A stretch of 34,269 nucleotides of DNA, from the IMG/VR virus record IMGVR_UViG_3300025892_000065, positions 1 to 34,269 of that record; one strand, written 5' to 3'. The position numbers and the translations under genes are program-made. Of this stretch, positions 11,233-27,876 are shown in pieces. How positions within the stretch are numbered: the stretch's first letter is position 1; every line of letters begins with the position of its first letter. The notes under the pieces are model-generated. The model searched no databases. It had not been told where the DNA came from and saw nothing but the letters and a program-made list of their open reading frames with translations. This DNA comes from a virus.

Positions 11233-12150
11233 ATGGCAAAACAAACAATAAACATTGGTTCAAGTGGTAACGATGGTACAGGTACACCGTTACGTGATGG
11301 TGGAGATTTAATTAACGACAATTTTAATGAAATTTACACTGCCTTAGGGGATGGTACGAACTTAACATCAGGAACTTTTGTTACAGAAACTGGAACACAT
11401 ACGTTAACAAATAAAAGTGTTGATTTAACCGATAATACAATTACTGGTACATTGGCAGAATTTAATACTGCTGTTTCAGATGCAACGTTAGTTTCAACAA
11501 GTGATTCCCAAACTTTAACAAATAAAAGTATTGATTTAACCGATAATACAATTACTGGTACATTGGCAGAATTTAATACTGCTGTTTCAGATGCAACGTT
11601 AGTTTCAACAAGTGATTCCCAAACTTTAACAAATAAAAGTATTGATGTGGACAACAATACAGTATCTAACATTGAAGTTGATAATTTAAAATCTGGTGTA
11701 CTAGATACCGATTTAAGTAGTGTATCTGCTAGTGACGATACATTAGCTTCAGCTAAAGCTATTAAATCTTATATTGATACTAATGCTTCAAGTGTATCCG
11801 CATCAAGTACGACTACATTTACAAATAAATCAATAAATGCATCAGATAATACACTATCTAATATAACAAATAGTAATTTATCTGGCTCTGCAGGAATAAC
11901 TAATGCTAATTTGGCAAATTCTTCATTAACATTTAGAGACGACTCTTCTGCTGAAGATACAGTTTCGTTGGGGGAAGCGGTTATATTGACAGGAGGAACT
12001 GCCATAACATCTACTGTAGGAAGTAATCAAATAACATTTGCCGTAACTGATGGTAGTATTACTTCAACTCAACTTAACAGTGCTGTAAATTTACAAATAC
12101 TGGATTCATCAGGATCAGTTGTAAAAACACTTTATGGGTCGGGATCGTAA
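11233..12150 (+). CDS. Fibre-like structural protein with tandem 37-residue repeats
   Basis: 305 residues, beginning MAKQTINIGSSGNDGTGTPL and then GDLINDNFNEIYTALGDGTN, an N-terminus common in short tail-fibre or baseplate-decorating proteins of marine phages. The middle consists of LTNKS(I/V)D...NT units; two of 37 residues are identical at the DNA level. Ser/Thr/Asp/Asn richness fits a trimeric fibrous shaft. The last 20 residues (LQILDSSGSVVKTLYGSGS) closely match the end of the fibre-like protein at 20226. It has its own late promoter. A role in attachment or decoration is inferred from composition and position; the receptor is unknown. Confidence 0.75.
   Translation: MAKQTINIGSSGNDGTGTPLRDGGDLINDNFNEIYTALGDGTNLTSGTFVTETGTHTLTNKSVDLTDNTITGTLAEFNTAVSDATLVSTSDSQTLTNKSIDLTDNTITGTLAEFNTAVSDATLVSTSDSQTLTNKSIDVDNNTVSNIEVDNLKSGVLDTDLSSVSASDDTLASAKAIKSYIDTNASSVSASSTTTFTNKSINASDNTLSNITNSNLSGSAGITNANLANSSLTFRDDSSAEDTVSLGEAVILTGGTAITSTVGSNQITFAVTDGSITSTQLNSAVNLQILDSSGSVVKTLYGSGS
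11422..11643 (+). repeat. Perfect 111-bp tandem duplication
   Basis: Bases 11422-11532 and 11533-11643 are identical by direct reading, giving two exact 37-codon copies in the fibre-like gene. A partial, slightly diverged copy precedes them (ACAAATAAAAGTGTT against ...AGTATT). Perfect identity including third codon positions implies a recent duplication or ongoing unequal exchange. Confidence 0.9.
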
Positions 12151-12157
12151 AAATGAT

Positions 12158-12165
12158 TATAAATA
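12158..12165 (+). promoter_or_regulatory. T4-type late promoter TATAAATA
   Basis: Exact TATAAATA in the short gap before the gp8-like gene, 16 bases from its ATG, with AAGGAA between as ribosome site. Confidence 0.7.
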
Positions 12166-12181
12166 TAAGTAAGGAACAAAA

Positions 12182-13696
12182 ATGCCAGCAATTATAACAA
12201 ACAAATTTAGAATACACAACTCTGAACAATTCCATGAGTCATTTTCAGAAAGTTCAGCTAATAATTACTATCTAATTATAGGTAGACCTCAAGCATATGG
12301 AACTTCAACAAGACCAGATGGAAGAACAGAAAACGAAGGTACAGATAGTGCTCCTATCTTACCTGTAGATGACGTAACAGAGGAATTTTATCACTTTGAT
12401 GATGCAATTGCTGCTAAAAAAATTACATCATCTGATATATCGTTTGTTATGCCTAGAAGAAATTGGACAACAGGTACAGTGTATGACATGTACAGAAATG
12501 ATTACGGAAAAAGAATTACAGGAACAACAACTGTTAAAACTTCAACAAGTGGTGCATCAAATTTATATGATGCTACTTTTTATGTTAAAAACAGCAACAA
12601 TCACGTTTATAAGTGTTTAGATAATAATTCAGGTGCTACTTCAACTGTAGAACCTACGCTAACTTCAACTGCTATTTTAGAGACAGGTGATGGATATAAA
12701 TGGAAATATATGTATACTTTGACTGCTTCTCAAGGAACTAGTTTTTTATCTACAGACTTTATGGCAGTAACAACAAATTCAAATGCTGGTTCAGGTCAAT
12801 CTTCAGTTATATCTGCGGCTGTTAATGGTGCGTTAGATATTGTAACTGTTAAAACAGTTGGCACAGGATATACAGTATCGGGTGGTGCAAGTTCTGGTAC
12901 AATTACAGGTGTACCAATCAGAGGAGATGGTTCATCTGGCGTTGCTTCTGTTGTACTAGACTCAGGTGCTGTTTCTTCAGTATCAGTTACAACAGCGGGA
13001 AGTGGTTATACTTTGGCTTATATTACTAACGCAGATATTATTGCTGGTACAAATGCTGGTGGTACTGGTACAGGTGCTGAATTGGATGTAATTATTTCAC
13101 CAAAAGGTGGTCATGGATCAAATGCTGTTAAAGAGTTAGGTGGTTTTTATGTAATGTTAAACACTAACTTTGAAGGTGTTGAGGCAGGTTCTGGTTCAGA
13201 TGTAAGTGCTGAAAATGATTTTAGAAGAGTCGCATTAATTAGAGATCCAAATTCAAGTGGATCGTCTGCGTCTGCAACTACACTAAGAGGAACAAAGGCA
13301 ATAAGATTTGCTGCTTCTCCAACTCCTGGTACATTTACTAGTGATGAAGAAATAAATCAGGTATCAACAGGTGCCGTAGGTAAAGTAGTTGAGTGGGATG
13401 CTACAAACAGAATTTTATATTATATACAAACAAGATTTAATGACGAAGGTGCTGACAGTAATGGTGATATTACAGCCTTTTCAGGTACAAGTGTAATTAC
13501 TGGACAAGGTTCAAGTGCTACTGGTACTCCTGATACAGGATTTACAAATAATGTAAACGGTGCTTCATTTACATCAGGTTATTCAGCAAGTGAATTAGAT
13601 GCTGATACTGGTGATATATTATATGTTGAGAACAGAGCACCAATTTTGAGAGCTACTGATCAGACAGAAAATATTAAATTGATAATTGAATTTTAA
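12182..13696 (+). CDS. gp8: Baseplate wedge protein gp8-like
   Basis: 504 residues against 334 in T4 gp8, so clearly enlarged. The N-terminal third is the recognisable part: ITNKFRIHNSEQFHESFSES, NYYLIIGRPQAYG, SDISFVMPRRNWTTGTVYDM and then LYDATFYVKNSNNHVYKCLD followed by DGYKWKYMYTL. From about residue 205 there is a Gly/Ser/Val-rich insertion with two 'V.T.G.GY' units (TVGTGYTV, TAGSGYTL). It also has one GE/TSGA-type module (FTSDEEINQVSTGAVGKVVEW) near 383-405, shared with neighbouring structural proteins. The C-terminal strand (ENRAPILRATDQTENIKLII) closes the fold. gp8 joins the wedge arm in T4. AGGAG before the next gene keeps the block contiguous. Confidence 0.85.
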   Translation: MPAIITNKFRIHNSEQFHESFSESSANNYYLIIGRPQAYGTSTRPDGRTENEGTDSAPILPVDDVTEEFYHFDDAIAAKKITSSDISFVMPRRNWTTGTVYDMYRNDYGKRITGTTTVKTSTSGASNLYDATFYVKNSNNHVYKCLDNNSGATSTVEPTLTSTAILETGDGYKWKYMYTLTASQGTSFLSTDFMAVTTNSNAGSGQSSVISAAVNGALDIVTVKTVGTGYTVSGGASSGTITGVPIRGDGSSGVASVVLDSGAVSSVSVTTAGSGYTLAYITNADIIAGTNAGGTGTGAELDVIISPKGGHGSNAVKELGGFYVMLNTNFEGVEAGSGSDVSAENDFRRVALIRDPNSSGSSASATTLRGTKAIRFAASPTPGTFTSDEEINQVSTGAVGKVVEWDATNRILYYIQTRFNDEGADSNGDITAFSGTSVITGQGSSATGTPDTGFTNNVNGASFTSGYSASELDADTGDILYVENRAPILRATDQTENIKLIIEF

Positions 13697-13711
13697 TAGG
13701 AGTGAAAGACT

Positions 13712-16700
13712 ATGCCAGCAAAAACTGATTTTAATGTCAGTCCATATTTTGATGATTTTACTGAAAGTAAGAATTTTCATAGAATTCTTTTTAGACCTGC
13801 ATTTGCTGTTCAAGCGAGAGAATTAACACAATCACAAACAATCTTACAAAATCAAATTGAAAGAGTAAGTGATCATATTTTCAAACAGGGTGCAATGGTT
13901 ATTCCTGGTCAAGTTTCTATTGATACAAGTTATTATGCTATTAAATTAACTTCAAAATCAGCAAGTTCAATTGATGACTATAATAACACTACAATTACAG
14001 GAGACACTTCAGGTGTTGTCGCTGAAGTTGTTGGTGTTTCAGCAACAGATGGTACTGATCCTGATACTTTATTTGTAAAATATAATAAAACAGGTACAAA
14101 TAAAACAGACACAATTTTTGCTGATGGTGAAAATATTACATCAGATGGTACTGGCACTCCTACTGCTGTAGTTGATACGGCTGCAACAGGTTCAGCTGCA
14201 GGAATACAAGAAGGTGTGTATTACATAAATGGATTTTTTGTAAAAGTTGTATCATCAACACTTGTATTAGACAAATATACAAGTACACCATCATACAGAA
14301 TTGGATTAAGTGTTACTGAAGCATTTACATCACCTGGTGATGACAGTTCACTTAACGATAATGCTCAAGGTAGTTCAAATGCAAATGCACCTGGAGCTCA
14401 CAGATTAAAAATTACACTTACATTAGCAAAGAAAACTTTATCATCCACTGAAGACAGTAACTTTTTTGAAATTGCTAGAGTTGAAAATGGTGTCATAAAA
14501 TCAGCAGTAAGAAATACTGAATATGCTGTATTAGAAGAAACACTTGCTAGAAGAACGTTTGACGAATCTGGTGATTACACTTTAAGTAATCCAGATTTTG
14601 ATGTAAGAGAACATTTAGATGATGAAAATAATAATAGAGGAATTTATACTGAGTCTAACGGTGGTGATTCAACTAAACTTGCAATTGGTGTTTCACCTTT
14701 TAAAGCATATGTAAAAGGATTTGAGGCTGAAACTATCGCTACAAAATATGTTGATGTAGATAAAGCAAGAGATTTTGATACTGCGAACAATAATAAAACA
14801 AGATTTAATTTAGACAACTACTTTGTAGTTGATAATGTTTACGGTTCTCCAGATGTTGGATTTGTTTCTGGTACTGTAGAGGCCTTTAAAACAATTAATT
14901 TATATGATACAAAAACAGGATCACGTGGTACTGAACAATCAACTTTAGGTGTAACTGTACCTCAAATTGGCAGAGCAAAAAGTAGAGGGTTTGAATTTGT
15001 AACGGGTTCAGAAACAGACGATATTTTTTCTACATCATCAAATTGGAAACATTATATTTTTGATGTAGAATTATTTACACATCTTAATACGATTGAGGCA
15101 ACTTCATTTACAACAGGTGAAATTGTTTCAGGAACAACTTCAGGTGCAACTGGTATAGTTCAATCTATTTCTGCAATAAAAAGTTCTGCTGTAACTTCAA
15201 TATCTGTTGCAAGTCCAGGTATTGTAACTTTAAATTCTCACGGTTTTGTAGATGGTCAACAAATAAATGTATCTGGTGGTAATTTTGAAATAGATGCGTC
15301 AGCATATACTGAAGGAACTTATACAGTTAGAAATGCAACTACAAATACTTTTGAATTATATGGTTCAAATGGAACAACTGCACAAAACGTAACAACGTTC
15401 ACATCAGCACCAACAATAACACATGGTGTTGTTGTATTGTTAAATGTACAAGGAGAGTTTAGTGCTAGTGAAACTATAGTTGGTCAAACTTCAAGTAACA
15501 CTGCAACTATTCAAGCAGACACAATTGGTAGAAAAGGTGTTAAAATTGTTGACAATACAGCAATTAAACAAATTGGCATGGCAGGTTCACCTACTTACAC
15601 AGCTGACACAACTTTAAATAATACATATGGTACTAATGAAACAATTGTAGGTAACGTAACCATTGCAAATAGTTCATCACAATTATTAGGTAAAGGTACA
15701 AACTTTAATGTAGATTTAAAAATAGGAGATTCAATTTCATTTACAAATGATACAGGATCAACAGTTACAAAAATCATTAAAAATATTATTTCACAAACAG
15801 AAGCAACTTTAGATAGTGTTGTGGGTAGTTCAGACATATCAACTGCTGCTGTTTTAACAAAAAAAAGAGCAAAACTTACAAATCCTGATAACAATATTTT
15901 GGTGTTTCCTTTACCATATACAACAGTTAAAACATTAAAAACTACATCAAATTTAGGACAAACTGATACAAACTTTAACGTAAGAAGACAGTTTACTGCT
16001 ACATTATCACCAAACGGTGATGAAACAATAACAGCTGGATCAGATGAAACTTTCGTATCTTTGTCCGATAAAGATTTTTCAGTTTCTATTACGTTAGCGG
16101 GTGGTGGTTCTTCAACAGGTTCAGTTGGTGATGTATTAAACCTATCTGGCAGTAACCACGAAGGTGACGCAATATTCACTTTACAAGGTTCGCCTGTTGG
16201 TAAAACATTAAAACTGGATTTTGGTGCTGATTTTGCTGGGCACACAATCAAAATAATTGCCACAGTAAGTAGAACGATTGCAGGTTCAAAAAATAAATCT
16301 TTAAATGAAGCTTCCATTTTAGACACCCATAATGATGGCGTATCTGATACAGAAATTCAAAGTGGTATCATTAATTTAAAGAAGGCAGATATTTTTAAAT
16401 TAAATAATATTTACATGTCAAGTGGTTTTGGTTCAGTTGCTGATAGTTCAGATACAGATATTACAGATAGATTTGACTTAGATAATGGTCAAAGAGATAA
16501 CTTTTATGACATTGGAAGAATTAAATTGAAACCAGGTGCTATCGTTCCTACAGGAGAATTATATATTTCTTTTGATTATTTCTCACATGGTACCGGCGAT
16601 TATTTTGATGTGGATTCATATTCAGGAGTAATTAACTATGAAGATATACCAAGTTATACGTCTGATACAACTGGCCAAACATATCAATTAAGAGATACAT

Positions 16701-19700
16701 TAGACTTTAGACCAAGAGTTGATGATGCATCAACAATTGATAGTGGATCAAACGATAGATCCTATGATGGAGTAGGTGCATCACGTATTGATGTACCACA
16801 ATTTGGTTCAGATATAACTTCAGATTTAGAATTTTATTTAAATAGAATAGACAAAATTTTTATAACAAGAGAAGCTGATTTAAAAGTTGTAAAAGGCGCT
16901 TCTGCATTAAATCCTTTAGAACCTGGTAACCTAGATGGTCACCTATTACTTGCAACTTTAAATATTCCAAGTTATACTTTAAATACAGATGAAGTAACTA
17001 TAACTAAAGAAGATAATAAACGATTTACAATGAGAGATATAGGTGCTTTAGAAAACAGAATTAAAAACATAGAATACTATACTCAACTTTCTCTATTAGA
17101 GGCTGATGCCCAATCACTACAAATACAAGATGCTGATGGTTTTGATAGATTTAAAAATGGTTTTGTAGTTGATAACTTTACAGGTCACAATGTTGGCGAT
17201 GTAGGTAATAATGACTACAAGCTCTCAATTGATAGAGCTCGAGGTGAGGCAAGAACATTATTTAACGAGGATGTTGTTGAGTTAGAGGAAATAGATAACG
17301 ATTTAACTACACTAGTAGCAGCAGATAGAACAGCTGCAAACTATCAAAAAACTGGTGATGTTATAACTCTACCTTATACAGAAACAAGTTTTATTGAACA
17401 ACCATATGCAACAAAAACAGAAAATTTAAATCCTTTCTTTATATTTGATTGGATTGGAGATATTACATTAGATCCACCAGTTGATGAATGGAAAGAAACA
17501 AGAACAGCTCCTGAATTAGTTGTAAACGTTAATGGTACTTTTGATAATCTTGCTAGAGAAAGAGGATTAAGTAATACTAGTACAACAGAAATACCTGTAG
17601 GTACTGAATGGAATGAATGGCAAGATCAATGGTCAGGAAATGCTAGAACATCACAAAGATGGCAAGGTAATAGTTTAGTTTCTACAACAAGTAGAGATGT
17701 TGTTCAAACAAGAAGTGGTGTAAGAACAACTATAGTGCCACAAACAGTTAGACAAAGTTTAGGTAATAGAGTTATATCTGTTGCGTTTGTTCCCTTTATT
17801 AGAAGTAGAACAATCAACTTTACTGCTCAAGGTATGAGACCTAATGCAAGAATTTATCCTTTCTTTGATGAACAAAATGTAACAAGTTATGTTGCACCAA
17901 CAGGTGGTAATGCTGGTGATAATATTGAAACAGATGTAAATGGTTCTGCTACAGGTACATTTGAAATACCTAATCCTAATACAACAGGAAATCCAAGATG
18001 GAGAACAGGTAAAAGAGTATTCAGATTAACAAGTTCATCTACAAACAGTACAGATAGAACAGCAGTTGCTACATCAGCAGAAGCTGATTATGATGCAAAA
18101 GGTTTATTAGAAACAGTACAAGAAGCTATAGTTTCAACAAGAGAAGCTAGAACGGTAAGAACATCTACAACATCAACTAGAAGAACAACTAGAACGGCAA
18201 GTAGAGTTGTTGGTACAAGAGGTGGTAATGGTAATGGTGGTGGTGGTGGTGGTGATCCATTGGCACAATCATTTGTAGTTGATAGTGAAGATGGTATATT
18301 CGTAACTTCGGTTGATGCTTTCTTTGCAACTAAATCATCTACAATTCCAGTAAGAGCTGAAATTAGAAGAATGGAAAATGGTTATCCTAGTGAAACATTA
18401 TTACCATTTGCTAGAAAATATTTAAATCCAAATTCTATTAATACAAGTACAGATGGTTCAACTGCAACTACATTTACATTTGACTCTCCTGTTTACTTAC
18501 AAGAAGGTATTGAATATTGTTTAGTCTTATATTCAGACTCAAAAGATTATACAGTTTACGTTGCTAGATTGGGTGAAACAACACTAGATGGTAATAGAAC
18601 AGTATCTAATCAACCTGCAACTGGTGTGCTATTCAAGTCAGCAAACAATCGTACATGGTCTGCTGAACAAATGGAAGATTTAAAATTTACTTTAAATAAA
18701 GCAGTTTTCGATACTAGTTCTTCTGGTACTTTAACACTTTCAAATGAAACATTACCTAGTAAAACACTTGATAATAATCCTATTAGAACATTTAACGGTT
18801 CTTCTACAATTAGAATTTTTCACAAAAACCATGGATTACATAGTACAAGTGATAATGTAACAATAACAGGTTTAGCTTCAGGTACTTTTAATGGTATTGA
18901 TACATCTATAAATCCTATAAACGGAACATATACAAGTATTAAAAATATAACTTTAGATAGTTATGATATTACAACAACTGGTACTGCTACTGCTACAGGT
19001 GATATAGGCGGTTCTACTGTAACAGCTACACAAAATAGACAGTTTGATGTATTACAACTTCAAATAGGACATGTAATACATCCAGGTACTACTTTAACAT
19101 CTAATATTAGAACAACAACTGGTAAATCTGTTCATGGAACAGAAACACCATTTATATTGGCAGGTGAAAGTTCAACTCAATCTGTTGTATTAGGAGATAA
19201 CATTTACTTTACTGAACCAAAACTGGTTGCAAGTGAAATTAATGAAACAAATCAGTCAACATTAAATGGAAGTAAATCATTTGTAACAAATTTAATATTC
19301 AGTTCAACAAATGCTAATCTTTCTCCTGTTATTGATTTAAAACGTGTTAATGTATTTGCAATATCAAATAGATTAAATAATCCAACTGTAAGTTCTACAA
19401 ATACATTCACAGGTGATGGATCAACAACTGCGTTTACTTTATCAGGTACTCCTGATGATGTTCATATTTTATCAGTAACAAAATCAGGACAAAAATTATC
19501 TCCTGTTGTTGACTTTACAGTTTCTGGTCCTACATTAACTATGACAAGTGCGCCAGCAAGTGGTGCTAAAGTTGTTGCAAAAATTACAAATACAGTAAAT
19601 TATGTTGATGATACTGCAATACAAGGTGGTTCATCTGCTGGTTCTTATATAACAAAATCTATTAATCTTGCAAACGTTTCTAAGGCACTTGAAATAAGAG

Positions 19701-20002
19701 TGGCTGCGAGTGTACGATCTACATCATCTATCAAAGTATATTATAGAGTGAGTGGTGGTGATGAAACAAGAAGAATACAAGATATAGAATTTACTCCGTT
19801 CAATACAGATGGTTCATCAGATAGTTCAGTTGCACCGTCTCAAGGAGATCAAGTTTTAGATACCGATTTTAAAGATTATAAATTTAGTGCAAGTGATATA
19901 CATGATTTTACTACGTTTCAAATTAAAATTGTATTTAGAGGAACTAATTCCTCATATACTGCAAGACTAAAAGACTTTAGAGGAATTGCTTTGGCGGTAT
20001 AG
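13712..20002 (+). CDS. Giant virion structural protein, DUF4815-like (gp10 position)
   Basis: 2096 residues, the largest gene here. The N-terminus (FNVSPYFDDFTESKNFHRIL, then FRPAFAVQARELTQSQTIL and DHIFKQGAMVIPG) is the DUF4815 type found in large baseplate or tail proteins of marine T4-like phages, usually placed at gp10. GE/TSGA modules lie near residues 462-486 and 580-605. A Thr/Arg-rich segment (RTSTTSTRRTTRTASR) and a glycine run (about 1507-1516) lead into DPLAQSFVVDSEDGIFVTSVD, probably a hinge before a domain that recurs in such proteins. The C-terminal 600 residues are beta-rich with adhesin-like composition. AGGAG precedes the start. Receptor binding or wedge-pin function is inferred. 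Confidence 0.8.
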   Translation: MPAKTDFNVSPYFDDFTESKNFHRILFRPAFAVQARELTQSQTILQNQIERVSDHIFKQGAMVIPGQVSIDTSYYAIKLTSKSASSIDDYNNTTITGDTSGVVAEVVGVSATDGTDPDTLFVKYNKTGTNKTDTIFADGENITSDGTGTPTAVVDTAATGSAAGIQEGVYYINGFFVKVVSSTLVLDKYTSTPSYRIGLSVTEAFTSPGDDSSLNDNAQGSSNANAPGAHRLKITLTLAKKTLSSTEDSNFFEIARVENGVIKSAVRNTEYAVLEETLARRTFDESGDYTLSNPDFDVREHLDDENNNRGIYTESNGGDSTKLAIGVSPFKAYVKGFEAETIATKYVDVDKARDFDTANNNKTRFNLDNYFVVDNVYGSPDVGFVSGTVEAFKTINLYDTKTGSRGTEQSTLGVTVPQIGRAKSRGFEFVTGSETDDIFSTSSNWKHYIFDVELFTHLNTIEATSFTTGEIVSGTTSGATGIVQSISAIKSSAVTSISVASPGIVTLNSHGFVDGQQINVSGGNFEIDASAYTEGTYTVRNATTNTFELYGSNGTTAQNVTTFTSAPTITHGVVVLLNVQGEFSASETIVGQTSSNTATIQADTIGRKGVKIVDNTAIKQIGMAGSPTYTADTTLNNTYGTNETIVGNVTIANSSSQLLGKGTNFNVDLKIGDSISFTNDTGSTVTKIIKNIISQTEATLDSVVGSSDISTAAVLTKKRAKLTNPDNNILVFPLPYTTVKTLKTTSNLGQTDTNFNVRRQFTATLSPNGDETITAGSDETFVSLSDKDFSVSITLAGGGSSTGSVGDVLNLSGSNHEGDAIFTLQGSPVGKTLKLDFGADFAGHTIKIIATVSRTIAGSKNKSLNEASILDTHNDGVSDTEIQSGIINLKKADIFKLNNIYMSSGFGSVADSSDTDITDRFDLDNGQRDNFYDIGRIKLKPGAIVPTGELYISFDYFSHGTGDYFDVDSYSGVINYEDIPSYTSDTTGQTYQLRDTLDFRPRVDDASTIDSGSNDRSYDGVGASRIDVPQFGSDITSDLEFYLNRIDKIFITREADLKVVKGASALNPLEPGNLDGHLLLATLNIPSYTLNTDEVTITKEDNKRFTMRDIGALENRIKNIEYYTQLSLLEADAQSLQIQDADGFDRFKNGFVVDNFTGHNVGDVGNNDYKLSIDRARGEARTLFNEDVVELEEIDNDLTTLVAADRTAANYQKTGDVITLPYTETSFIEQPYATKTENLNPFFIFDWIGDITLDPPVDEWKETRTAPELVVNVNGTFDNLARERGLSNTSTTEIPVGTEWNEWQDQWSGNARTSQRWQGNSLVSTTSRDVVQTRSGVRTTIVPQTVRQSLGNRVISVAFVPFIRSRTINFTAQGMRPNARIYPFFDEQNVTSYVAPTGGNAGDNIETDVNGSATGTFEIPNPNTTGNPRWRTGKRVFRLTSSSTNSTDRTAVATSAEADYDAKGLLETVQEAIVSTREARTVRTSTTSTRRTTRTASRVVGTRGGNGNGGGGGGDPLAQSFVVDSEDGIFVTSVDAFFATKSSTIPVRAEIRRMENGYPSETLLPFARKYLNPNSINTSTDGSTATTFTFDSPVYLQEGIEYCLVLYSDSKDYTVYVARLGETTLDGNRTVSNQPATGVLFKSANNRTWSAEQMEDLKFTLNKAVFDTSSSGTLTLSNETLPSKTLDNNPIRTFNGSSTIRIFHKNHGLHSTSDNVTITGLASGTFNGIDTSINPINGTYTSIKNITLDSYDITTTGTATATGDIGGSTVTATQNRQFDVLQLQIGHVIHPGTTLTSNIRTTTGKSVHGTETPFILAGESSTQSVVLGDNIYFTEPKLVASEINETNQSTLNGSKSFVTNLIFSSTNANLSPVIDLKRVNVFAISNRLNNPTVSSTNTFTGDGSTTAFTLSGTPDDVHILSVTKSGQKLSPVVDFTVSGPTLTMTSAPASGAKVVAKITNTVNYVDDTAIQGGSSAGSYITKSINLANVSKALEIRVAASVRSTSSIKVYYRVSGGDETRRIQDIEFTPFNTDGSSDSSVAPSQGDQVLDTDFKDYKFSASDIHDFTTFQIKIVFRGTNSSYTARLKDFRGIALAV

Positions 20003-20003
20003 T

Positions 20004-20225
20004 ATGTCTTATATTAAAGTTGAAGGTTATACACATTTAGTTAGAGATAAAAGTTCTAACGCAATTGTAAACACTGATAAAACTGAATATCAACTTTATA
20101 TGACAAGAAAAAATGCGAGAGTTAAAAATATAGATCAATTTAGACACGCTGTAAAAGAGATAAATAGTTTAAAAATAGAATTGTATGAAATAAAAAAAAT
20201 GTTAGAAAAGGTTATAAAAAAATAA
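20004..20225 (+). CDS. Small conserved structural-block protein (73 aa)
   Basis: I start at ATG 20004, one base after the previous stop; an upstream in-frame ATG lies inside the giant gene. The product reads MSYIKVEGYTHLVRDKSSNA, then IVNTDKTEYQLYMTRKNAR and a C-terminal coiled coil (EINSLKIELYEIKKMLEKV). Small proteins with a 'V.GH.HLVRD..SNAI' start are common after the large baseplate gene in marine T4-like phages, as far as I recall. The coiled coil suggests oligomerisation or a chaperone/adaptor role for the fibre genes beside it. Confidence 0.75.
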   Translation: MSYIKVEGYTHLVRDKSSNAIVNTDKTEYQLYMTRKNARVKNIDQFRHAVKEINSLKIELYEIKKMLEKVIKK

Positions 20226-21041
20226 ATGGCTGCAAGAACAATAACAACCACAGACACTTTAGAAGATTTAAGATTACAGTTTAACGCATTATCAGAAAAT
20301 GATTTTGGTGATATTGGAACATTAGATTCTTCTCTTACAGCAACTTCAGTAATTGGTGCTGTTAATGAATTATCAGCCGCTGTGACTGCTGGAACAGGAT
20401 TTTTTTTAGAAGATTCAAGTTCAACAATACAACAAATAGCTGCGGGACAAACTCTACATGTTGATGGTTCAACAAATATAAATGCTGTTGTTTCGGTATC
20501 TGATACTTTAACAATTTCTTTAACTGACGACATATCAGTAAGTGGTACATCACACACTTTTGGTACACTTCAAATAAGTAGTAATACTATTAGTTCTTCA
20601 AATAGTGATACTATTACCTTAAACGATAATATTACTGTTAGTGGTTCAGTTGTAGCTGGCTCTACTACTTTAAATCCATCAGCAGCTAATACTAATATAA
20701 TTAACTCAACAGGTATAGTGAAATTTGGCTCAGATATAAATTTAAATGCAGGTTATAATATATCCTTTGAAGGTACAACAGATAATGACTTTGAAACAAC
20801 TTTAACTTTAACAGATCCAACTGCCGATAACACATTAACATTACCAGATGAAACAGGGACAATTGTAACAACAGGAAGTTCAGGTGTTGTCACTGGTACC
20901 ATGATAGATAGTGATACAGTAGGAGAGTCTAATATGGCAGATGATGCTATAGGCCAAGATCAATTAAAATCTGTTGCAACATTACAAATAATAAATTCTT
21001 CTGGTGTGGTTGTTAAAACAATCTATGGTGCAGGAGCATAA
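20226..21041 (+). CDS. Fibre-like structural protein
   Basis: 271 residues, starting immediately after the preceding stop. The first 60 residues (TTTDTLEDLRLQFNALSEND, SVIGAVNELSAAV) are helical and resemble N-termini of short marine phage fibres. The middle has strand repeats typical of trimeric shafts (HVDGSTNINAVVSVSDTL; NAGYNISFEGTTDNDFETTL), with LTLTDPTADNTLTLPDETGT, a unit seen in many phage tail fibres. The C-terminal 20 residues (LQIINSSGVVVKTIYGAGA) are nearly the same as the end of the protein at 11233. No catalytic or chaperone domain is seen. Confidence 0.75.
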   Translation: MAARTITTTDTLEDLRLQFNALSENDFGDIGTLDSSLTATSVIGAVNELSAAVTAGTGFFLEDSSSTIQQIAAGQTLHVDGSTNINAVVSVSDTLTISLTDDISVSGTSHTFGTLQISSNTISSSNSDTITLNDNITVSGSVVAGSTTLNPSAANTNIINSTGIVKFGSDINLNAGYNISFEGTTDNDFETTLTLTDPTADNTLTLPDETGTIVTTGSSGVVTGTMIDSDTVGESNMADDAIGQDQLKSVATLQIINSSGVVVKTIYGAGA

Positions 21042-21070: not shown

Positions 21071-22006
21071 ATGGCAGTAAGAACACCTTTAAAAAATGAC
21101 AGTGGTAATTTAAAACAAATGTCATCCAGTGAGATAGATGGTATTGTAGATCAAATTGTATATCAATATTCTTTAAATCCAAGTGTCGCTTTATCAGTAG
21201 TATCATCAGGTGGTAGTTTAAGTTCAATCACAGATACAAGAAAAAAGGCTGGTGCATCTTCTAGTAGAGCAGATAGATTTCCAACTGAGTCTGAAACAGC
21301 AGAACCTGGTACTGTAACAGTTACTTATGACAAAGTTGATCAATCAACAACTACAGTAACACCTACAACAGATACAGGCAAAACATGGCCTGTGTATTAT
21401 ACATCAGGTGGTAACATGCAAGCTATGACACTACAAGATGTAAAAGATACTTTTTTACATCCTGCAATAGATTTATTGTCAGCTGGATCTACAACAACTC
21501 AACAGGCAGGTACTTATCATATTTCATCTTCAACATCTGTCTCTGGTTCAACTAGAGTTTCATCTACAGCTATTTTTTCTGATACAAGAGCAAATACAAG
21601 TGCTTATACTGCAGGTGGTATTTCTGAAACACTAGATCAACCAACAACCATTACAAGTTATTATTTGTATAGAGTAAATGGTTCAGATACTTCTTATGTT
21701 AATCCAATGTTTATTACATCAGGTAACCATTTACAAGAATTTTTACCTACAACATGGGAATCCTTAGTACAAGAATGGATTAGATATACGGCTGCATCGT
21801 CAAGTGATGGTTATTCAATCAGTTATAATATAGGAACTTCAGGTTCAGGTAATACAAGAGGTTCTGGTATGGGTGATACAAGATTAAATGGTTCTGGTAA
21901 TTACCAAACAAGATTTGTAAATACAGATGATTACAGAGCACAAGAATTTCCTAACGGATCAGCTGCAACTATAAATACATATTATTTAAGAATAAACAAA
22001 TCTTAA
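21071..22006 (+). CDS. Virion structural protein (311 aa)
   Basis: The N-terminus reads MAVRTPLKNDSGNLKQMSSS and then EIDGIVDQIVYQYSLNPSVAL. A Ser/Thr-rich middle (TETAEPGT-type spacer, TTTVTPTTDTG) precedes VYYTSGGNMQAMTLQDVKDTF and FLHPAIDLL. The C-terminal half has the pattern YYLYRVNGSDTSYVNPMFIT, then FLPTTWESLVQEWIRYTA and a Gly-rich stretch GSGNTRGSGMGDTRLNGSGN. Proteins of this build are conserved in the tail/baseplate block of marine T4-like phages but lack a T4 counterpart I can name. TGGAGA nine bases before the ATG is the ribosome site. Confidence 0.7.
   Translation: MAVRTPLKNDSGNLKQMSSSEIDGIVDQIVYQYSLNPSVALSVVSSGGSLSSITDTRKKAGASSSRADRFPTESETAEPGTVTVTYDKVDQSTTTVTPTTDTGKTWPVYYTSGGNMQAMTLQDVKDTFLHPAIDLLSAGSTTTQQAGTYHISSSTSVSGSTRVSSTAIFSDTRANTSAYTAGGISETLDQPTTITSYYLYRVNGSDTSYVNPMFITSGNHLQEFLPTTWESLVQEWIRYTAASSSDGYSISYNIGTSGSGNTRGSGMGDTRLNGSGNYQTRFVNTDDYRAQEFPNGSAATINTYYLRINKS
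21970..21977 (+). promoter_or_regulatory. Possible internal late promoter TATAAATA
   Basis: Exact TATAAATA inside the last codons of the preceding structural gene, 59 bases before the ATG at 22037. It could serve that last plus-strand gene, but it overlaps coding sequence and may be chance in AT-rich DNA. Confidence 0.4.
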
Positions 22007-22036: not shown

Positions 22037-22528
22037 ATGTTAACTGAAGAATTTTTAAAAGGCAATTTAATTAATGCTTATTTCATAGATAATGAAAAAA
22101 AAAATATAGAAATGGTTCTTAGATCACAGGATCAAAAAAGTGTGTTTACTGAAATAACACCATTTGATGAAAATAACGAGCAGTATAGAATACTTATAAA
22201 AAATATATCATTAGATCAACTACATGAGAACACTTATCAGAAAAAGAAAGACGAAAGACGTGAATATGAAGAAGAGGTGATTAGAATTGCAAAAAGAGAT
22301 GGTCTAATTTCAGACAATATCAATAATGGAGAATATTTTACAAATATGTTAAAGGTAATTGTAGAGGATGAAAGTAATGAAGATCATTTGTTTGCTTTAA
22401 AAATTGCATTATTTGAAGTCGAAGATATAAGAGATTCGGAAAATATTGAATTGAAAAAAAATATAAGACAATCAAAAAGTAAAGCTGAAATATTATTAAA
22501 TGCTTTAAAGATTATTTGTAAGGAATAA
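22037..22528 (+). CDS. Hypothetical acidic protein at end of structural block (163 aa)
   Basis: A charged, mostly helical protein: MLTEEFLKGNLINAYFIDNE at the start, a strand pair (VLRSQDQKSVFTEITPFDEN), a long helical stretch (KKKDERREYEEEVIRIAKRD) and a C-terminal basic helix (NIRQSKSKAEILLNALKIIC). No signal or membrane segment is seen. Similar short acidic proteins follow fibre genes in marine T4-like phages, but I cannot name a function. Its 3' end overlaps the convergent glycosyltransferase gene by 17 bases, where the plus-strand block meets the minus-strand operon; no hairpin terminator is visible there. Confidence 0.7.
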   Translation: MLTEEFLKGNLINAYFIDNEKKNIEMVLRSQDQKSVFTEITPFDENNEQYRILIKNISLDQLHENTYQKKKDERREYEEEVIRIAKRDGLISDNINNGEYFTNMLKVIVEDESNEDHLFALKIALFEVEDIRDSENIELKKNIRQSKSKAEILLNALKIICKE

Positions 22529-23084
22529 AATAATCACTATACCAACCTGTCCAACCTTTTTCTTGGAGATGGTGCATTTGACCTAATGTACAAATACTTA
22601 CTCTTGGTGGTCTTCTATAAATGTAATTTTTTATTGAAGGACAAATTTTATCATATGTTTCATATTTAATATTTTTATAATACCATTCATCACTTCCTCT
22701 TGTATATGTTTTTATATAATATTCATCATATTTTTTAAATTTATCCCATATATAAGATACATCTCCTGTCCATGATACAATAGATGAGTTTAAAGGTGTA
22801 TGAGCAGGCTCTCTCCACCATGTATCATCTAGTAATGTAAAGTTTTTTCTAATTAAATTAGGTAACTTATCATGTATTACCATATCTAAATCAAAGTATA
22901 AGTTTTCACCATCTCTATATCTATTATACATTTGAAACTTGTTAAACCAGTTACCATATAGGTCGTCTTCTATAACTTCAAAACTATCATACTTTAGACC
23001 AGAATATACATCTATCATATGTTTTAAGTTATCAACGTGCCATTGAGTAAACTTATTACCAAATCTACAACAAATGATTCTCAT
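22512..23084 (-). CDS. GT-A type glycosyltransferase with DxD motif (last operon gene)
   Basis: I start at ATG 23084 (MRIICCRFGNKFTQWHVDNL), preceded by GAAAGAAAG; an in-frame ATG at 23108 lies deeper in the upstream gene. The 190-residue product has the Rossmann-like N-terminus of GT8-like enzymes and LYFDLDMVIHDKL with D65 and D67 as the metal-binding DxD. WWREPAHTPLNSSIVSW resembles the acceptor-side region. There is no signal peptide or membrane helix, so it is cytosolic. It is shorter than usual GT8 enzymes (about 250-300) and ends soon after GWTGWYSDYF. Sugar donor and acceptor are unknown. Confidence 0.72.
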   Translation of the reverse strand: MRIICCRFGNKFTQWHVDNLKHMIDVYSGLKYDSFEVIEDDLYGNWFNKFQMYNRYRDGENLYFDLDMVIHDKLPNLIRKNFTLLDDTWWREPAHTPLNSSIVSWTGDVSYIWDKFKKYDEYYIKTYTRGSDEWYYKNIKYETYDKICPSIKNYIYRRPPRVSICTLGQMHHLQEKGWTGWYSDYFIPYK

Positions 23085-24117
23085 ATAACTTTCTTTCGTT
23101 TTCAACATTTCGCTCTACATCAACATTACAATACTTTTTACATACTTTAGGAAGATTTTCATCTGAACTATTTTCTAATACATCTATAAATTTTTTCCAC
23201 TCATCTTTATCTAAAATTTCTTCAACAGAATTATTGTTTTCAATATGTAAATTATCTTTAAATAAAGGTTTAATATGTGTATCATTAAAACTAGTATTTA
23301 CCCAACAACAAGGTAATATGTGTCCTGTAACTGAATAAGATAAATCTCTATTAGTCAAAAGGCATTTTGGTTTTAATGTATTTGTTTTATTTTTTTTATC
23401 TTCAACTTTACTCATAGGTCTTGAAGTCCATTCTCCAATAGAATAATCTATTGAAGCATAAGAGTTATTAGAATTTTCTCCGTCAGTTTTTTTATCACTA
23501 TTTTTCCAACCTATTTTTCCGTCTTTAGCTTCTTCTAGTTCAACATTGTTAATATTTTTTGATACAGGTCTTTTAGATGTTATTAACATAAATTTTAACT
23601 TGTGTTGTTTGGCAATTTTTTTAGCCGTTTCAATATCATCTTTATTATAATCAAAAACAATATATTGCCATTCAGGTCTCATTCCTAAATATTTGTTTAA
23701 TAACATCATATCAAATAAAAATTCACCATCTTGATTCTTTCTATACTTATGACTATCTTTAGGTAAACCATCTATACCAAAAATCCAATTAGCGTCTGTG
23801 TTTGCTAAAAATGCTTTTTGCCACCAATTTTCTTTTTTATGTGTAGCAGCAGTATGTACTTCGGTTTTTATATTTTCTTCTTTACATATTTTTAATATAT
23901 CAATAAAATGTATATTAAAAATAGGATCAGAAAAGGTACCACAAAAAGAAACATGTTTGAAGTATTTAATTATTTTTTTAAATTGTTCTGGAGTTAAATC
24001 TTTACCAGGTATTTTTTTACCTTGTTCTCTAAATCTTTGTCTAGCACAAGCAGAGCATTCTAATGTACATTTAGGACCTGCGTCTATATTAAGGATTCTT
24101 TCATTAAAAGGAATCAT
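23065..24117 (-). CDS. Radical SAM protein with SPASM-like C-terminal cysteines
   Basis: 350 residues. The SAM-cluster motif is CTLECSAC (C17, C21, C24). The usual GGEP after the second strand is replaced by CGTFSDP (59-65), though its position is right. C252, C270, C271, C326 and C330 (KCLLTNR, ILPCCWVN, CKKYC) look like auxiliary-cluster ligands of SPASM/twitch enzymes. An Asn/Lys-rich insertion (about 195-250) is unusual. The ATG overlaps the stop of the upstream nitroreductase-like gene (ATGA). SPASM enzymes modify peptides, and some act on sugars or alcohols. The substrate here is unknown; operon context favours sugar chemistry. Confidence 0.8.
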   Translation of the reverse strand: MIPFNERILNIDAGPKCTLECSACARQRFREQGKKIPGKDLTPEQFKKIIKYFKHVSFCGTFSDPIFNIHFIDILKICKEENIKTEVHTAATHKKENWWQKAFLANTDANWIFGIDGLPKDSHKYRKNQDGEFLFDMMLLNKYLGMRPEWQYIVFDYNKDDIETAKKIAKQHKLKFMLITSKRPVSKNINNVELEEAKDGKIGWKNSDKKTDGENSNNSYASIDYSIGEWTSRPMSKVEDKKNKTNTLKPKCLLTNRDLSYSVTGHILPCCWVNTSFNDTHIKPLFKDNLHIENNNSVEEILDKDEWKKFIDVLENSSDENLPKVCKKYCNVDVERNVENERKLYENHLL

Positions 24118-25007
24118 TTAATTTCAGTTACCTTTATATTTCTTTTATATACTGAAGAATTTATTTTTGTATCAGCAGTTTCAGGAATAATATGTTTAAC
24201 ACCGTATGGATCAAGCATTGTCTTATTTTCATTACCCTTTATATTGACTTGTAATGCCTTTCTCATTTTCATTCCTGTTCGAGGATGTACTTCTTGACCA
24301 GTTAAAGTAATTCTACTTCCATTACCTGCGCCTAATAAAAGTTCAGTATCATCTTGTTCCCAACGTGGTCGGTTTTCATTTGGATAACCTACACCTAAAC
24401 CATAGGCTACTTTCTTAATACCTTTATCTATATCATCTAAAATTCCTAATTTTTTTCCCCAAAAGTCATTTCCGTTTATATCATTATGACTTTTATTTGG
24501 TCCAGTAACATATCCCATTTTAACTGCAGCTCTCATAGTTAATCCTAAAGATATGCCAATACTACAATAAGAATTTATCCATCTTTCATGGTGTGAATTT
24601 GGTTTTAAAGAACCATCAGCGTTACAGTTTAATTGTGTGTCAGGTTCTTTAGCTACCCATATAATGTAAATACTAGCATTTGCTTGTGTGTTTCTCCATG
24701 TTGATGGTGGATTTCTTCTATGGGTATTGCCCCAAGTATATCTGGATATTTCTTGTATTACTTTTCTATCCCATGTATAATATAAATCAAAATGTGATTC
24801 ATACTGTTTGCTAGGAGTATTTTGAGCAACATATAATAATTCTTCTACATGTCTTTCTTTATTTTCAATTTTATCATCTTCAAATTTTTTATAATCCCAG
24901 TTTCTCTGACATCTAGTAATTTTTTCTAAAATTTTATGTTCTTCATCCCAATCATAAGTTTCATTCATGTAGTTTCTCATGCCTTTTTCATATTTAGTGA
25001 TTGTCAT
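24114..25007 (-). CDS. Nitroreductase-like flavoprotein (large form, 297 aa)
   Basis: The pattern is that of the FMN-binding nitroreductase fold: KITRCQRNWDY (in place of the R-R-S-x-R start), EELLYVAQNTPSKQYESHF, RWINSYCSIGISLGLTMRAA with VKMGYVTG, and KKVAYGLGVGYPNENRP. These correspond to the FMN phosphate-binding arm, the A..aPS..N/Q turn, the central helix and the 'GiGyP' strand. The C-terminal 80 residues (TLTGQEVHPRTGMKMRKALQ, VNIKGNENKTMLDPYGVKHI) are not normal for the family. A second, smaller family member is encoded three genes upstream. It may reduce or oxidise an operon intermediate, or be a non-catalytic partner. ATGA overlaps join it to genes on both sides. Confidence 0.6.
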   Translation of the reverse strand: MTITKYEKGMRNYMNETYDWDEEHKILEKITRCQRNWDYKKFEDDKIENKERHVEELLYVAQNTPSKQYESHFDLYYTWDRKVIQEISRYTWGNTHRRNPPSTWRNTQANASIYIIWVAKEPDTQLNCNADGSLKPNSHHERWINSYCSIGISLGLTMRAAVKMGYVTGPNKSHNDINGNDFWGKKLGILDDIDKGIKKVAYGLGVGYPNENRPRWEQDDTELLLGAGNGSRITLTGQEVHPRTGMKMRKALQVNIKGNENKTMLDPYGVKHIIPETADTKINSSVYKRNIKVTEIK

Positions 25008-25747
25008 TTCCAGTTTTCCTTTATGAAATTGTTATTATATTGATGAATAGTTTTTCCAACACCTGTAAAATGAACAACTTTAATCTTTTCATTTACATCA
25101 TCAAGTATCATATAGTCTGTATTAAACTTCTTTGAATATATCTTATTTAATTCAACATTATCCATAGTATTATCTGTGTGTCTGCCTATCCACTCTCTAG
25201 GTGTTAGTGTTAATTTTATATTATGTTGTTGTACTTTCCAATTAACATAGTTTTGTTCTCCATAGTATTTGTGATGTACAATACCTTTATTGTAATAATT
25301 CAATTGCCAAAAGTGTGGATTTAACGAGAAGTCGTCCCATATACTTTTTAGACTACCTGATTTAAACTTATAGAAACCACCGTTTAGTTTTATACCTTTA
25401 TTATCCCACCACTGGCCATAAGAAACTAATTCATTTTCTTTAACAGAATGCCCTAATAGTTCATCTACGTTACCTACAATAACTTGATCAATGTCCATTA
25501 TGATAATATCATCACCAGGTTTTTGACCTCCAAATTGAGGACTAAAAAACTTTAACTTATGCCAGTGTTTCTTTATATCACTATGATGGTTGTAAGGTAA
25601 TATAACATCTGCCTCGATATCATTAGTATCACTCAAACATATAAACTCAAAAGGTACTGTACTGTTTCTCTTTAGACTTCTATATAATTTACTTACATAG
25701 TCGGGTGTGTAGAAACCTTTGAAATATACAGTACATATCTTAAGCAT
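25004..25747 (-). CDS. Glycosyltransferase, GT8-like with DxD motif
   Basis: 247 residues: N-terminal ICTVYFKGFYTPDYVSKLYR, acceptor-side HSDIKKHWHKLKFFSP, the metal site DDIIIMDIDQVIVGNVDEL (D85-x-D87), GGFYKFKSG, and a C-terminal VVHFTGVGKTIHQ that should bring the third metal-binding His. This is the full GT-A arrangement of glycogenin/LgtC-like enzymes, which move a hexose from UDP-sugar with retention. No membrane anchor is present. It is encoded next to another DxD transferase in the same operon, so the two probably add successive sugars. Confidence 0.82.
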   Translation of the reverse strand: MLKICTVYFKGFYTPDYVSKLYRSLKRNSTVPFEFICLSDTNDIEADVILPYNHHSDIKKHWHKLKFFSPQFGGQKPGDDIIIMDIDQVIVGNVDELLGHSVKENELVSYGQWWDNKGIKLNGGFYKFKSGSLKSIWDDFSLNPHFWQLNYYNKGIVHHKYYGEQNYVNWKVQQHNIKLTLTPREWIGRHTDNTMDNVELNKIYSKKFNTDYMILDDVNEKIKVVHFTGVGKTIHQYNNNFIKENWK

Positions 25748-26588
25748 ATTTTCTCCAAACTAAATCAAAGTCTTTACAAATACAATGTACTAACTTAACT
25801 TCTTTAGGTATAAATTTTTGTCTATCTAGGAAGTAATGCCACTCATCATCTAACCATTGAATAGATACATTGTTTATTTGTTTCTTATATGAGAAGATAG
25901 TTTCATTATCGTATCTAAACATATCAATAATGTTTTGTGGATATAACCCACTGGTGTCTTTTCTTAATTTTGTCATTAGATCAATCGTGTCTTTAAATCC
26001 ACCAAAGAAATCTAATTTTATAATATCTTCTTTACATGCTCCAATGATACCTGTATTGACAACATCATTTATAGGTTTTAAACCTTGATCATATAACATA
26101 GCGTGACAATTAAAATATTTCGCTGATGGACTTCTAATACTTTGGGCAACAGTTACATCTTTAATTACATGACTGTTATTATTATATACACAAATGCCTT
26201 TAGACAAGTCCCATACATCAAAGAAAGACTCATCTGTTAAAGGTATTACATCAAAGTCTAGGTATAATATTTCATCATAAGTCTTTGATAGTTCATTAAG
26301 TAAGTGTATTTTATAGAAGTTAATAACTTCATAACCAGTAAACATAGGAAAGTCTTTTAAGAAGTTTTGTTCAAATGTTTTGTATTGTTCGTCATACTCA
26401 AACATTAGAAAATCTACATCACATCTTTTAGCATACCATTGTTTAACTTCAACCAATCTATCGTAATGTTTTTTAAAAGCATTAACAGTTATAGAAGCCT
26501 TTTCTTTTGTATCGTGTTTGTTTTTAGAGTTACCATAATGTTCTTTTGCTGGCACATCAACATACAAGCTGTATATTACTCTTTTCAT
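25740..26588 (-). CDS. Glycosyltransferase with DxD motif
   Basis: 282 residues. The N-terminus (MKRVIYSLYVDVPAKEHYGN) starts a Rossmann-like fold; FTGYEVINFYKIHLLNELSK leads to DEILYLDFDVIPLTDESFFD, with D111 and D113 as the DxD. NTGIIGACKED and a late VKLVHCICKDFDLVWRKY complete a GT-A layout in which the final His may bind metal. Size and motifs fit GT8-like or related galactosyl/glucosyltransferases. The start overlaps the methyltransferase-like gene stop (ATGA), and the stop overlaps the start of the next transferase by eight bases. Donor and acceptor cannot be told. Confidence 0.82.
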   Translation of the reverse strand: MKRVIYSLYVDVPAKEHYGNSKNKHDTKEKASITVNAFKKHYDRLVEVKQWYAKRCDVDFLMFEYDEQYKTFEQNFLKDFPMFTGYEVINFYKIHLLNELSKTYDEILYLDFDVIPLTDESFFDVWDLSKGICVYNNNSHVIKDVTVAQSIRSPSAKYFNCHAMLYDQGLKPINDVVNTGIIGACKEDIIKLDFFGGFKDTIDLMTKLRKDTSGLYPQNIIDMFRYDNETIFSYKKQINNVSIQWLDDEWHYFLDRQKFIPKEVKLVHCICKDFDLVWRKYA

Positions 26589-27199
26589 ATCTTACCTACT
26601 AATAAAAATCTTGTTCCTCTTTCGTCTGTGACTTCATCTTCAACTAAAACTTTTGCGTTATCTGGTAATTGTTTTTTAAATTGTTCTATATTATTAACAC
26701 AATTAATATGTCCTGGTATCTCTAACATGTTGTTTGAAGTAAAGGCAAAATGTGTTGGTGATACTCTATCCCACCAAGGATTTTTATAGGTAGGAGCTGG
26801 ACCCCATTCTTTCATTGAAGGCATATGTTCACAAGAAGTGTTGATAAACAAATCACAATCTATAAAACAATCTCTAAAATCTTCAAATACATCACCACTA
26901 ATAAATTTTACATTTTTATAATGTGGAAACAATCTATTTTTAGCTATACTTACAACTTCATTATCTTTGTCAATAAGAGTAATCTCCTTACACTCTTTAA
27001 ATGCTGGAATTAATATACTACCATACCAACCACCCATAATAACAATTTTACTATTCTTATCAACAATGTTTAGTTTTTTTATATGATTGATTAATCTTTC
27101 TTTAGTTCTAAACTGATTAGGACTATATGAATCCAAAAGATCATCACTATGTCTGGCCTCTGCCATTATGTTTTTAAATAATTGTAAATCTATATCCAT
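26585..27199 (-). CDS. SAM-dependent methyltransferase-like protein
   Basis: 204 residues with a class I methyltransferase core: IVIMGGWYGSILIPAF (55-67, glycine-rich SAM loop, in a variant with GGWYGS), ITLIDKDNEVVSIAKNRL with acidic D77 at the end of strand 2, NVKFISGDVFEDF, and DLFINTSCEHM as motif IV. A C-terminal strand pair (VLVEDEVTDERGTRFLLVG) is present. It could methylate a sugar hydroxyl or amine, which would fit this operon. The atypical loop leaves open a different SAM- or nucleotide-binding role. Confidence 0.68.
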   Translation of the reverse strand: MDIDLQLFKNIMAEARHSDDLLDSYSPNQFRTKERLINHIKKLNIVDKNSKIVIMGGWYGSILIPAFKECKEITLIDKDNEVVSIAKNRLFPHYKNVKFISGDVFEDFRDCFIDCDLFINTSCEHMPSMKEWGPAPTYKNPWWDRVSPTHFAFTSNNMLEIPGHINCVNNIEQFKKQLPDNAKVLVEDEVTDERGTRFLLVGKI

Positions 27200-27876
27200 T
27201 TTACTATTTCATTCATTTCAGGTTTTACATCCTCACCTTCTTTAAGATTATCTTTTATATCTTCTTCTCTATATCTTTTAGCATAACCACAACTTATCAT
27301 TGTTATAGGTCTTTGGTCAATCATAGTTAAACCAACTTTATGCCAATCTTTTACTTCTCTTTTAAAACAAGAATTGTAAGATATGTCTAATCCTTCTTCT
27401 AGTAAATAATATCCTAAATTACCTACAAACAATCCTGCTTCAACAGCCACAGAATCTATTATCTTTTCAATATCATATGCTTGGTCGTAATAATGTCCTT
27501 TTTCAACTTGTCTTTGATAAAACTTATTAGGAGTTGCAATTCTACTATGTATAGTAATTAAATATGGATTAAATTGTATATGTTCATAATAAGGATTAGG
27601 AACACCTTCTTGTGTTTTCCACATTCTTTTTAGTTTTACTGCTTCAAGTTCAGCGTCTATATGATTTATTATACATAATCGGTGTATGGCATATTTCTCA
27701 AATTTTTTATCAGGTCCCCAAACAAGTGCTTGATATGCCATTGCATTGTTTTTACCTGGTGTAGTTTTCCATGCTTTATATAACGCTTTTTCTATTTTTT
27801 CTTTTTCTGGTATTTTATCTAAATGATATTTTCTAACATGTTTTCTTTTATTTTCTAATGTATCAAAGTAATTCAT
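27190..27876 (-). CDS. Nitroreductase-like flavoprotein (228 aa)
   Basis: I start at ATG 27876 (MNYFDTLENKRKHVRKYHLD) because it overlaps the carbamoyltransferase stop as ATGA; a TTG start at 27891 is possible. The signs of the family are KRKHVRKY at the N-terminus (R-x-S-x-R-x-F pattern), AWKTTPGKNNAMAYQ (A..aPS..N.Q), DSVAVEAGLFVGNLGYYLLEEGLDISYN (central helices), and PITMISCGYAKR (the iGy strand). It should bind FMN and form a dimer. The 'TTPGKNNAM' turn and the 55-residue insertion between helix and core are unusual. With the second homologue in the operon it may form a heterodimer. The substrate is unknown. Confidence 0.65.
   Translation of the reverse strand: MNYFDTLENKRKHVRKYHLDKIPEKEKIEKALYKAWKTTPGKNNAMAYQALVWGPDKKFEKYAIHRLCIINHIDAELEAVKLKRMWKTQEGVPNPYYEHIQFNPYLITIHSRIATPNKFYQRQVEKGHYYDQAYDIEKIIDSVAVEAGLFVGNLGYYLLEEGLDISYNSCFKREVKDWHKVGLTMIDQRPITMISCGYAKRYREEDIKDNLKEGEDVKPEMNEIVKWI

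Follow-up and report, generated by a model that had tools for sequence, protein, structure and literature searches.

The window, by which is meant the whole 34,269-base stretch of DNA analysed here, is a record of a marine bacterial virus and represents a fragment. Its gene order is syntenic with that of Pelagibacter phage Mosig EXVC030M, and it contains T4-like baseplate genes (gp5-like with Gp5_OB, PAAR, gp25, gp6, gp9/10-like and gp8) together with a 2096-residue DUF4815 protein that sits where Mosig has VrlC. The features of concern are collected in Table 1; the Mosig counterparts of these genes are annotated as hypothetical proteins. Protein B is laid out as an N-terminal anchor, followed by a variable middle and then the tag, while protein A includes two near-identical tandem copies, of about 37 residues each, of the form TNKS(V/I)DLTDNTITGTLAEFNTAVSDATLVSTSDSQTL. 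Elsewhere in the window, a small ORF at 2161-2469 has the motif SCGCGE close to its end and is presumed to resemble an A-type iron-sulfur carrier, and the minus strand at 22512-32135 carries an apparent block of carbohydrate-related and radical-SAM-like genes, the order of which looks like that of a Mosig block annotated as nitroreductase, carbamoyltransferase, MoaA-like and aminotransferase.

Table 1. Positions in the window of the tagged fibre-like proteins, their tags and the genes downstream of B.
Feature	Position	Strand	Length	Description and basis
Protein A	11233..12150	+	305 aa	Fibre-like, tag at end; N-terminus T4 gp9/10-like (PF07880, 31.1 bits, cut-off 25; phrog_677, 1.4e-11)
C-terminal tag of A, including stop codon	12088..12150	+		A/B BLASTP, DNA comparison, pattern
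Protein B	20226..21041	+	271 aa	Fibre-like; homologue of Mosig_00098 (41.8% identity, tblastn, whole query)
C-terminal tag of B, including stop codon	20979..21041	+		Pattern; predicted beta-hairpin (AF2)
Protein C	21071..22006	+	311 aa	Putative partner gene of the tag (Mosig_00097 in Mosig), directly downstream of B; three tandem repeats of ~104 residues
Protein D	22037..22528	+	163 aa	Frequent third gene, not obligatory; putative chaperone

A sequence-only reading of this DNA had proposed that A and B share a C-terminal tag of about 20 residues. This was borne out, in that both ORFs are present and BLASTP of A against B returned the C-terminal 78 residues as the sole significant segment (37% identity, E 7e-9), the remaining segments having E values of 2.4 or worse. 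Protein A terminates in NLQILDSSGSVVKTLYGSGS and protein B in TLQIINSSGVVVKTIYGAGA, each followed directly by the stop codon. The residues of the tag had been described correctly, but the start given for it, 12061, falls within gene A upstream of the tag; less the stop codon, the tag proper occupies 12088-12147 in A and 20979-21038 in B. Since the last 63 nt of the two genes are identical at just 44 of 63 positions, recent duplication or DNA conversion was rejected as the origin of the tag, the likeness being either old or selectively kept as opposed to a recent copy at the DNA level. Taken as a whole, B was modelled poorly by AF2 from 37 sequences, with a mean pLDDT of 69 and a pTM of 0.36. 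Within this model, the tag is predicted to fold into a clear beta-hairpin, the two strands of which span residues 250-256 and 262-269, with a short helix ahead of it, and the hairpin contains the most confident block of the model (residues 251-260, pLDDT 92; residues 261-270, pLDDT 85). This hairpin may resemble the C-terminal hairpins of FlgD or of type IX secretion. Pfam searches at E<=0.1 matched neither A nor B to Peptidase_S74 (PF13884), for which phage HTVC008M served as a positive control (51 bits against a cut-off of 22), nor to the T4 fibritin foldon.

The distribution of the tag was examined with patterns. A stop-ending pattern was found in 47 viral stretches, the proteins being fibre-like by eye save for one (L021) that is too short to judge. 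A core pattern lacking the stop codon matched 77 stretches of viral contigs, and in all 77 the core starts 15 (74 stretches) or 17 (three stretches) residues ahead of a stop; as the pattern itself contains no stop, this strictly C-terminal placement indicates that the tag is beyond chance. The usual endings are YGAGA, YGAGS and YGTTS, and the residues preceding the core, which lie outside the pattern, are mostly similar too (LQIL). Across 84,980 bacterial and archaeal genomes the core pattern matched twice, once in a chance-like archaeal protein (L099) and once in a protein (L100) that shares its anchor and tag with a viral match (L087), so the tag was rejected as a common bacterial protein motif. 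Random occurrence in unrelated, non-structural proteins had been named beforehand as evidence against a functional tag, and was not observed: by eye, just one of the 79 matches (L099) looks unrelated. When 50,697 phage records were searched by tblastn with six forms of the tag, Mosig gave the only convincing copy, being matched with four of the six forms (with one of them merely at E 5) while two forms returned nothing, although near-identical records may be missing among these matches. A match in a Klebsiella phage at E 7 was taken as chance. Six weak matches in ORFs of 122-135 aa (G001, G002, G009, G011, G013 and G015) span just model positions 3-12 or 4-12, that of G001 lying within another small ORF (L194), and none was counted as a tag.

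Several records carry two or three tagged proteins, for example B, A and an Mtd_N-type fibre, the last of which precedes what look like neck genes. This third tagged fibre is 683-883 aa long and lies 29-41 kb from B (L188:3317-5368, L190:5910-8561 and L191:7559-10057); right behind it in the same three records is a gene starting MANP..RE.LKQYALRTLGKP, presumably a neck gene. By eye, the tag is found behind at least eight unlike N-terminal types, tagged anchors including gp9/10-like (PF07880) and Mtd_N (PF18454, tested on L188). The tagged proteins encoded ahead of C vary in length from 61 to 1416 residues. Those of 61 and 83 residues consist of hardly more than anchor and tag, which leaves scant space for a shaft, and yet they have C behind them. 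The four records with such mini-proteins each have one tag together with C, the C frame being split in two in one of them (L079). These records are fragments of 10.5-29.6 kb, and a longer tagged fibre could therefore be encoded elsewhere in the same genomes.

When residues 1-53 of B were used as the query, 80 loci were returned, comprising 63 closed tagged genes, 11 genes with a different ending that contains a KGDM motif and six that are open. At a threshold of 10 bits or more, a profile of the tag recognised 63 of the 63 closed tagged B genes as opposed to none of the 11 KGDM-type genes; clustering at 95% identity reduced the two sets to 38 and five, respectively. Conservation in the B family is lower over the tag columns (0.73) than over the anchor (0.84). 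The KGDM-type ending gave no Pfam match above cut-off, and may resemble a G2-type chaperone domain. In HTVC008M, the B homologue and an Mtd_N fibre both terminate in Peptidase_S74, and a search of that genome found neither the tag nor C. Occurrence of the B anchor with a tag, KGDM or S74 ending indicates that the C-terminal module is swapped as a unit, and the compared genomes put one type of C-terminal module on more than one fibre. The KGDM-type records (L169:7314-9591, with a similar order in L156, L165 and L179) have, directly after B, a cupin-domain gene (tested in L169), a radical-SAM-like gene (E 9e-5, under the Pfam cut-off) and a gene for a protein of 187-257 aa with the end CH(S/A)SCHSSCHGSRGRR. 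In these records C may be replaced by a tip protein that is modified.

Gene C adjoins each of the 63 closed tagged B genes but none of the 11 KGDM-type B genes, ten of which are followed by at least 4.7 kb of sequence. Relative to the B stop codon, the open frame of C begins at -9 to 96 nt, and in 80 loci chosen by C the gap, taken from the match start, is 6 to 119 nt. In 42 whole records, picked by the tag, by B or by the B anchor and not deduplicated, the tag (E<=0.1) and C (E<=0.01) were both present in the same 35 and both missing from the same seven. The latter are four KGDM-type records, HTVC008M, a record with a chance pattern match (G033) and G036, of which the last two say little; the tag-negative set is thus small, consisting of five KGDM-type clusters and HTVC008M. 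Since the 42 records had been selected by tag or by B, the converse scan was begun from C. One scan of public viromes contained at least 486 confirmed relatives of C, and the best 80 loci of each of two scans were taken, the second of which used a divergent query and provided 63 new loci. Among these best loci there are 113 distinct C genes, 111 with an upstream ORF, and 105 of the 111 lie behind a tag scoring 10 bits or more. The six exceptions have another C upstream (L305, L331 and L344), diverged ends (L310 and L335) or, as a counterexample, an untagged fibre (L293). In all six the tag is present elsewhere in the record: it was read out for L293, L305, L310 and L337 (the C of which is identical to that of L335), whereas it was matched on the contigs that carry L331 and L344, which are those of L187 and L183. 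Whole-record searches of 12 C-chosen records found the tag in 12 and C in 12. To gauge the background, 877 further ORF ends from these loci were scored as well. Of these, 36 passed as tags, and by eye 35 of the 36 are ends of other tagged fibres and one is the archaeal chance match. A narrow regular expression had accepted 61 of the 80 ends upstream of C, while the 19 that it missed look by eye like variants of the tag (with KS, KQ or D-S-N-G), and its count is superseded by those of the profile; similarly, an upstream-tag count of 144/150 mixes tag-chosen with C-chosen loci, whereas 105/111 is from C-chosen loci only. Among the 50,697 phage records, C was found at E<=0.01 only in Mosig, with the same proviso that near-identical records may be missing. 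Tandem duplicates of C occur in L183, L187/L193 and L305, in L183 and L187 behind a 61-residue tagged protein.

The extent to which common descent accounts for this linkage was assessed with 102 tag-C pairs, among which one anchor that is cut at an internal Met (L081) was retained, although no pair quoted individually here involves it. Similarity between C proteins correlates with that between anchors (0.57) more strongly than with that between tags (0.38), indicating that common descent accounts for part of the linkage. With the anchor removed, the partial rank correlation between tag and C is 0.26, a value that none of 500 permutations reached; that between anchor and C with the tag removed is 0.52. 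The covariation in sequence therefore supports a coupling of tag and C, if without fully separating it from common descent. In one pair of tagged loci (L044 and L245), the anchors are 27% identical and the C proteins 72% identical.

Pfam returned nothing for protein C at E<=0.1, and the best PHROG match is at E 0.064. Comparison of its three repeats, each of approximately 104 residues, by hhalign gave probabilities of 78, 91 and 93%, versus less than 1% for reversed controls. The AF2 model (50 sequences) has a pLDDT of 95.6 and a pTM of 0.88, and places helices at residues 19-35, 121-136 and 226-243. Foldseek gave no match to this fold at E<=0.001 in the PDB or BFVD, and the best Z-score with VIA was 3.2, although the absence of a match does not establish that the fold is new. 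The gp38 fold (PGII sandwich) likewise gave no PDB match to C at this threshold. By sequence, a search of the PDB gave one match for C, at E 2.1, and none for B. Protein C is about as conserved as the baseplate protein gp8 (66-71% against 68-69% identity in two comparisons), which is unlike a hypervariable adhesin, and neither column entropies nor the alignment of C revealed hypervariable loops between glycine-rich motifs. Such conservation would suit a tip that is itself conserved and meets a surface structure that is conserved too, or else a base of the tip on which further parts are mounted. Longer homologues of C, of 388-395 residues at six loci and 638 residues at one, as opposed to about 311 in the window, were observed at L102, L127, L138, L164, L168, L052 and L184; these longer frames have about 80 or more additional residues. 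Protein D is encoded in 31 of the 35 records with tag and C versus none of the other seven. The only Pfam match to D is to PHP (E 0.053, below the cut-off of that family), and in the search for homology of C or D to chaperone families, Pfam gave nothing above cut-off and PHROG only weak matches (E 0.01 or worse).

The explanation preferred here, to which a probability of approximately 0.6 is attached, is that of a transferable tip module, whereby the hairpin of the tag would cap a trimeric fibre at its distal end and provide the docking site for C, a tip protein with pseudo-threefold symmetry. The predicted hairpins of three fibre chains would together form a distal plug, on which C, threefold by virtue of its internal repeats, would sit as a socket; with three homologous repeats in a single chain, C could match the threefold symmetry of the fibre end by a pseudo-threefold surface. 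The tag is carried by A and B and, in relatives, by the Mtd_N fibre, and one tip protein could thereby be held on all of them, although the A and Mtd_N fibres do not adjoin C and its docking there is proposed from the shared tag alone. On this explanation the fibres would be trimers in direct contact with C through their tags, and C would be part of the virion and may have a role in host binding. The tagged proteins of 61 and 83 residues, which keep C despite having little shaft, fit the notion of an adaptor that merely holds C, and the extra residues in some C frames fit that of an exposed, displayed protein. Docking to a common partner had already been among the functions suggested for the tag; the close co-occurrence with C supports this and names a candidate partner, the physical contact itself being presumed.

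The principal alternative is that C is a trans-acting assembly chaperone, which would recognise the hairpins on three newly made chains, bring the chains into register and then depart, in place of the intramolecular chaperone of the S74 type that other phages have. A chain of three repeats could template a trimer and C is conserved; moreover, the B anchor and Mtd_N fibre of HTVC008M, where the tag and C were not found, have Peptidase_S74, and fibre chaperones that bind the distal end are known (PMC9608196, PMC10579305). Against this, the 61- and 83-residue tagged proteins have hardly any shaft to fold and nonetheless keep C, albeit in records that are fragments, the longer forms of C are better suited to a displayed protein, and protein D, of about 160 aa and further downstream, is an alternative candidate for a chaperone. 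The size of D resembles that of the two-domain Pam3 chaperone (PMC9608196), which is a lead only. Chaperone recognition, another function suggested previously for the tag, could accordingly involve C itself or D, but a chaperone role for C is considered unlikely.

Slightly less likely again is that the tag is a self-sufficient, foldon-like trimerisation cap, with C an independent tail protein that is co-inherited by chance. The confident prediction of the hairpin, the S74 ending that HTVC008M has on anchors of these kinds, the presence of tagged A and Mtd_N fibres without an adjoining C, and the correlation between anchor and C are all consistent with this, but C is missing behind 11 of 11 KGDM-type B genes despite their shared anchor, and is present behind tagged anchors that are unlike one another. 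A role for the tag in trimerisation, as was also suggested from the sequence initially, is nevertheless plausible, given that the B anchor and Mtd_N fibre bear the S74 chaperone domain at this end in HTVC008M. Finally, the presumed tip position of the tag and its conservation over contigs from many samples might suggest a conserved tip that binds a receptor by contacting some surface feature common to the hosts, with C a separate structural part, but this is highly improbable since it leaves the link to C and the presence of the tag on very short proteins unexplained.

The tip module favoured here has precedents in principle, since fibre-end tip proteins and exchangeable C-terminal modules are already known (gp37/gp38, S74 and Tfa-type chaperones). 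In T-even phages, gene 38 follows gene 37. In T2/S16/PP01-type phages, gp38 is described as the receptor-binding protein at the tip of the trimeric gp37 fibre, which it contacts via its N-terminus (PMC12892980). The C gene is likewise directly downstream of a fibre gene, B, and a second protein at the fibre tip is likewise proposed; in contrast to gp38, however, C has no Pfam family above cut-off, lacks the glycine-flanked hypervariable pattern and consists of three homologous repeats, and one tag is common to several fibres per genome. The tag takes the same C-terminal position as Peptidase_S74 (PF13884) on like anchors, namely those of the HTVC008M B homologue and Mtd_N fibre, but differs in having about 20 residues, no S74 match and a separate partner gene. 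In Pam3 and in Alteromonas phages A5/V22, a separate phage protein is described as binding the distal fibre end (PMC9608196, PMC10579305). The Pam3 protein, gp25, is a trimer of a chain of about 160 residues according to the same account (PMC9608196), whereas C is a 311-residue chain of three repeats, and neither C nor D has a Pfam match above cut-off. The host recognition cluster of pelagimyophages occupies the same place in the genome, downstream of VrlC and with tail fibres, and the relevant part of that report (PMC7029224) describes the island but not the tag or protein C. Similarly, the tail-protein text of the Mosig announcement (PMC7892664) mentions neither, nor do the titles and abstract openings found, subscription literature aside. 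With a minimal tag common to several fibres, plus a linked three-repeat partner, absent from this portion of the literature, and with the Mosig copies annotated as hypothetical, the arrangement appears to be a new variant.

A more general form of the proposal, to which we lean less than evenly, is that marine phages possess a plug-and-socket system in which a hairpin tag of about 20 residues, added freely to unrelated anchors and to several fibres per genome, recruits one pseudo-threefold tip protein with a fold so far unseen, where other phages have built-in maturation domains, the smallest form being a 61-residue adaptor of anchor and tag by which the tip protein would be attached directly to the baseplate. 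If true, this would make the tag a compact docking unit that can be transferred between trimeric fibres. Fibre tips help to decide which cells a phage infects, and a sequence tag that both flags these fibres and points to the protein with which they probably associate opens the tip to direct tests in a group common in public viromes.
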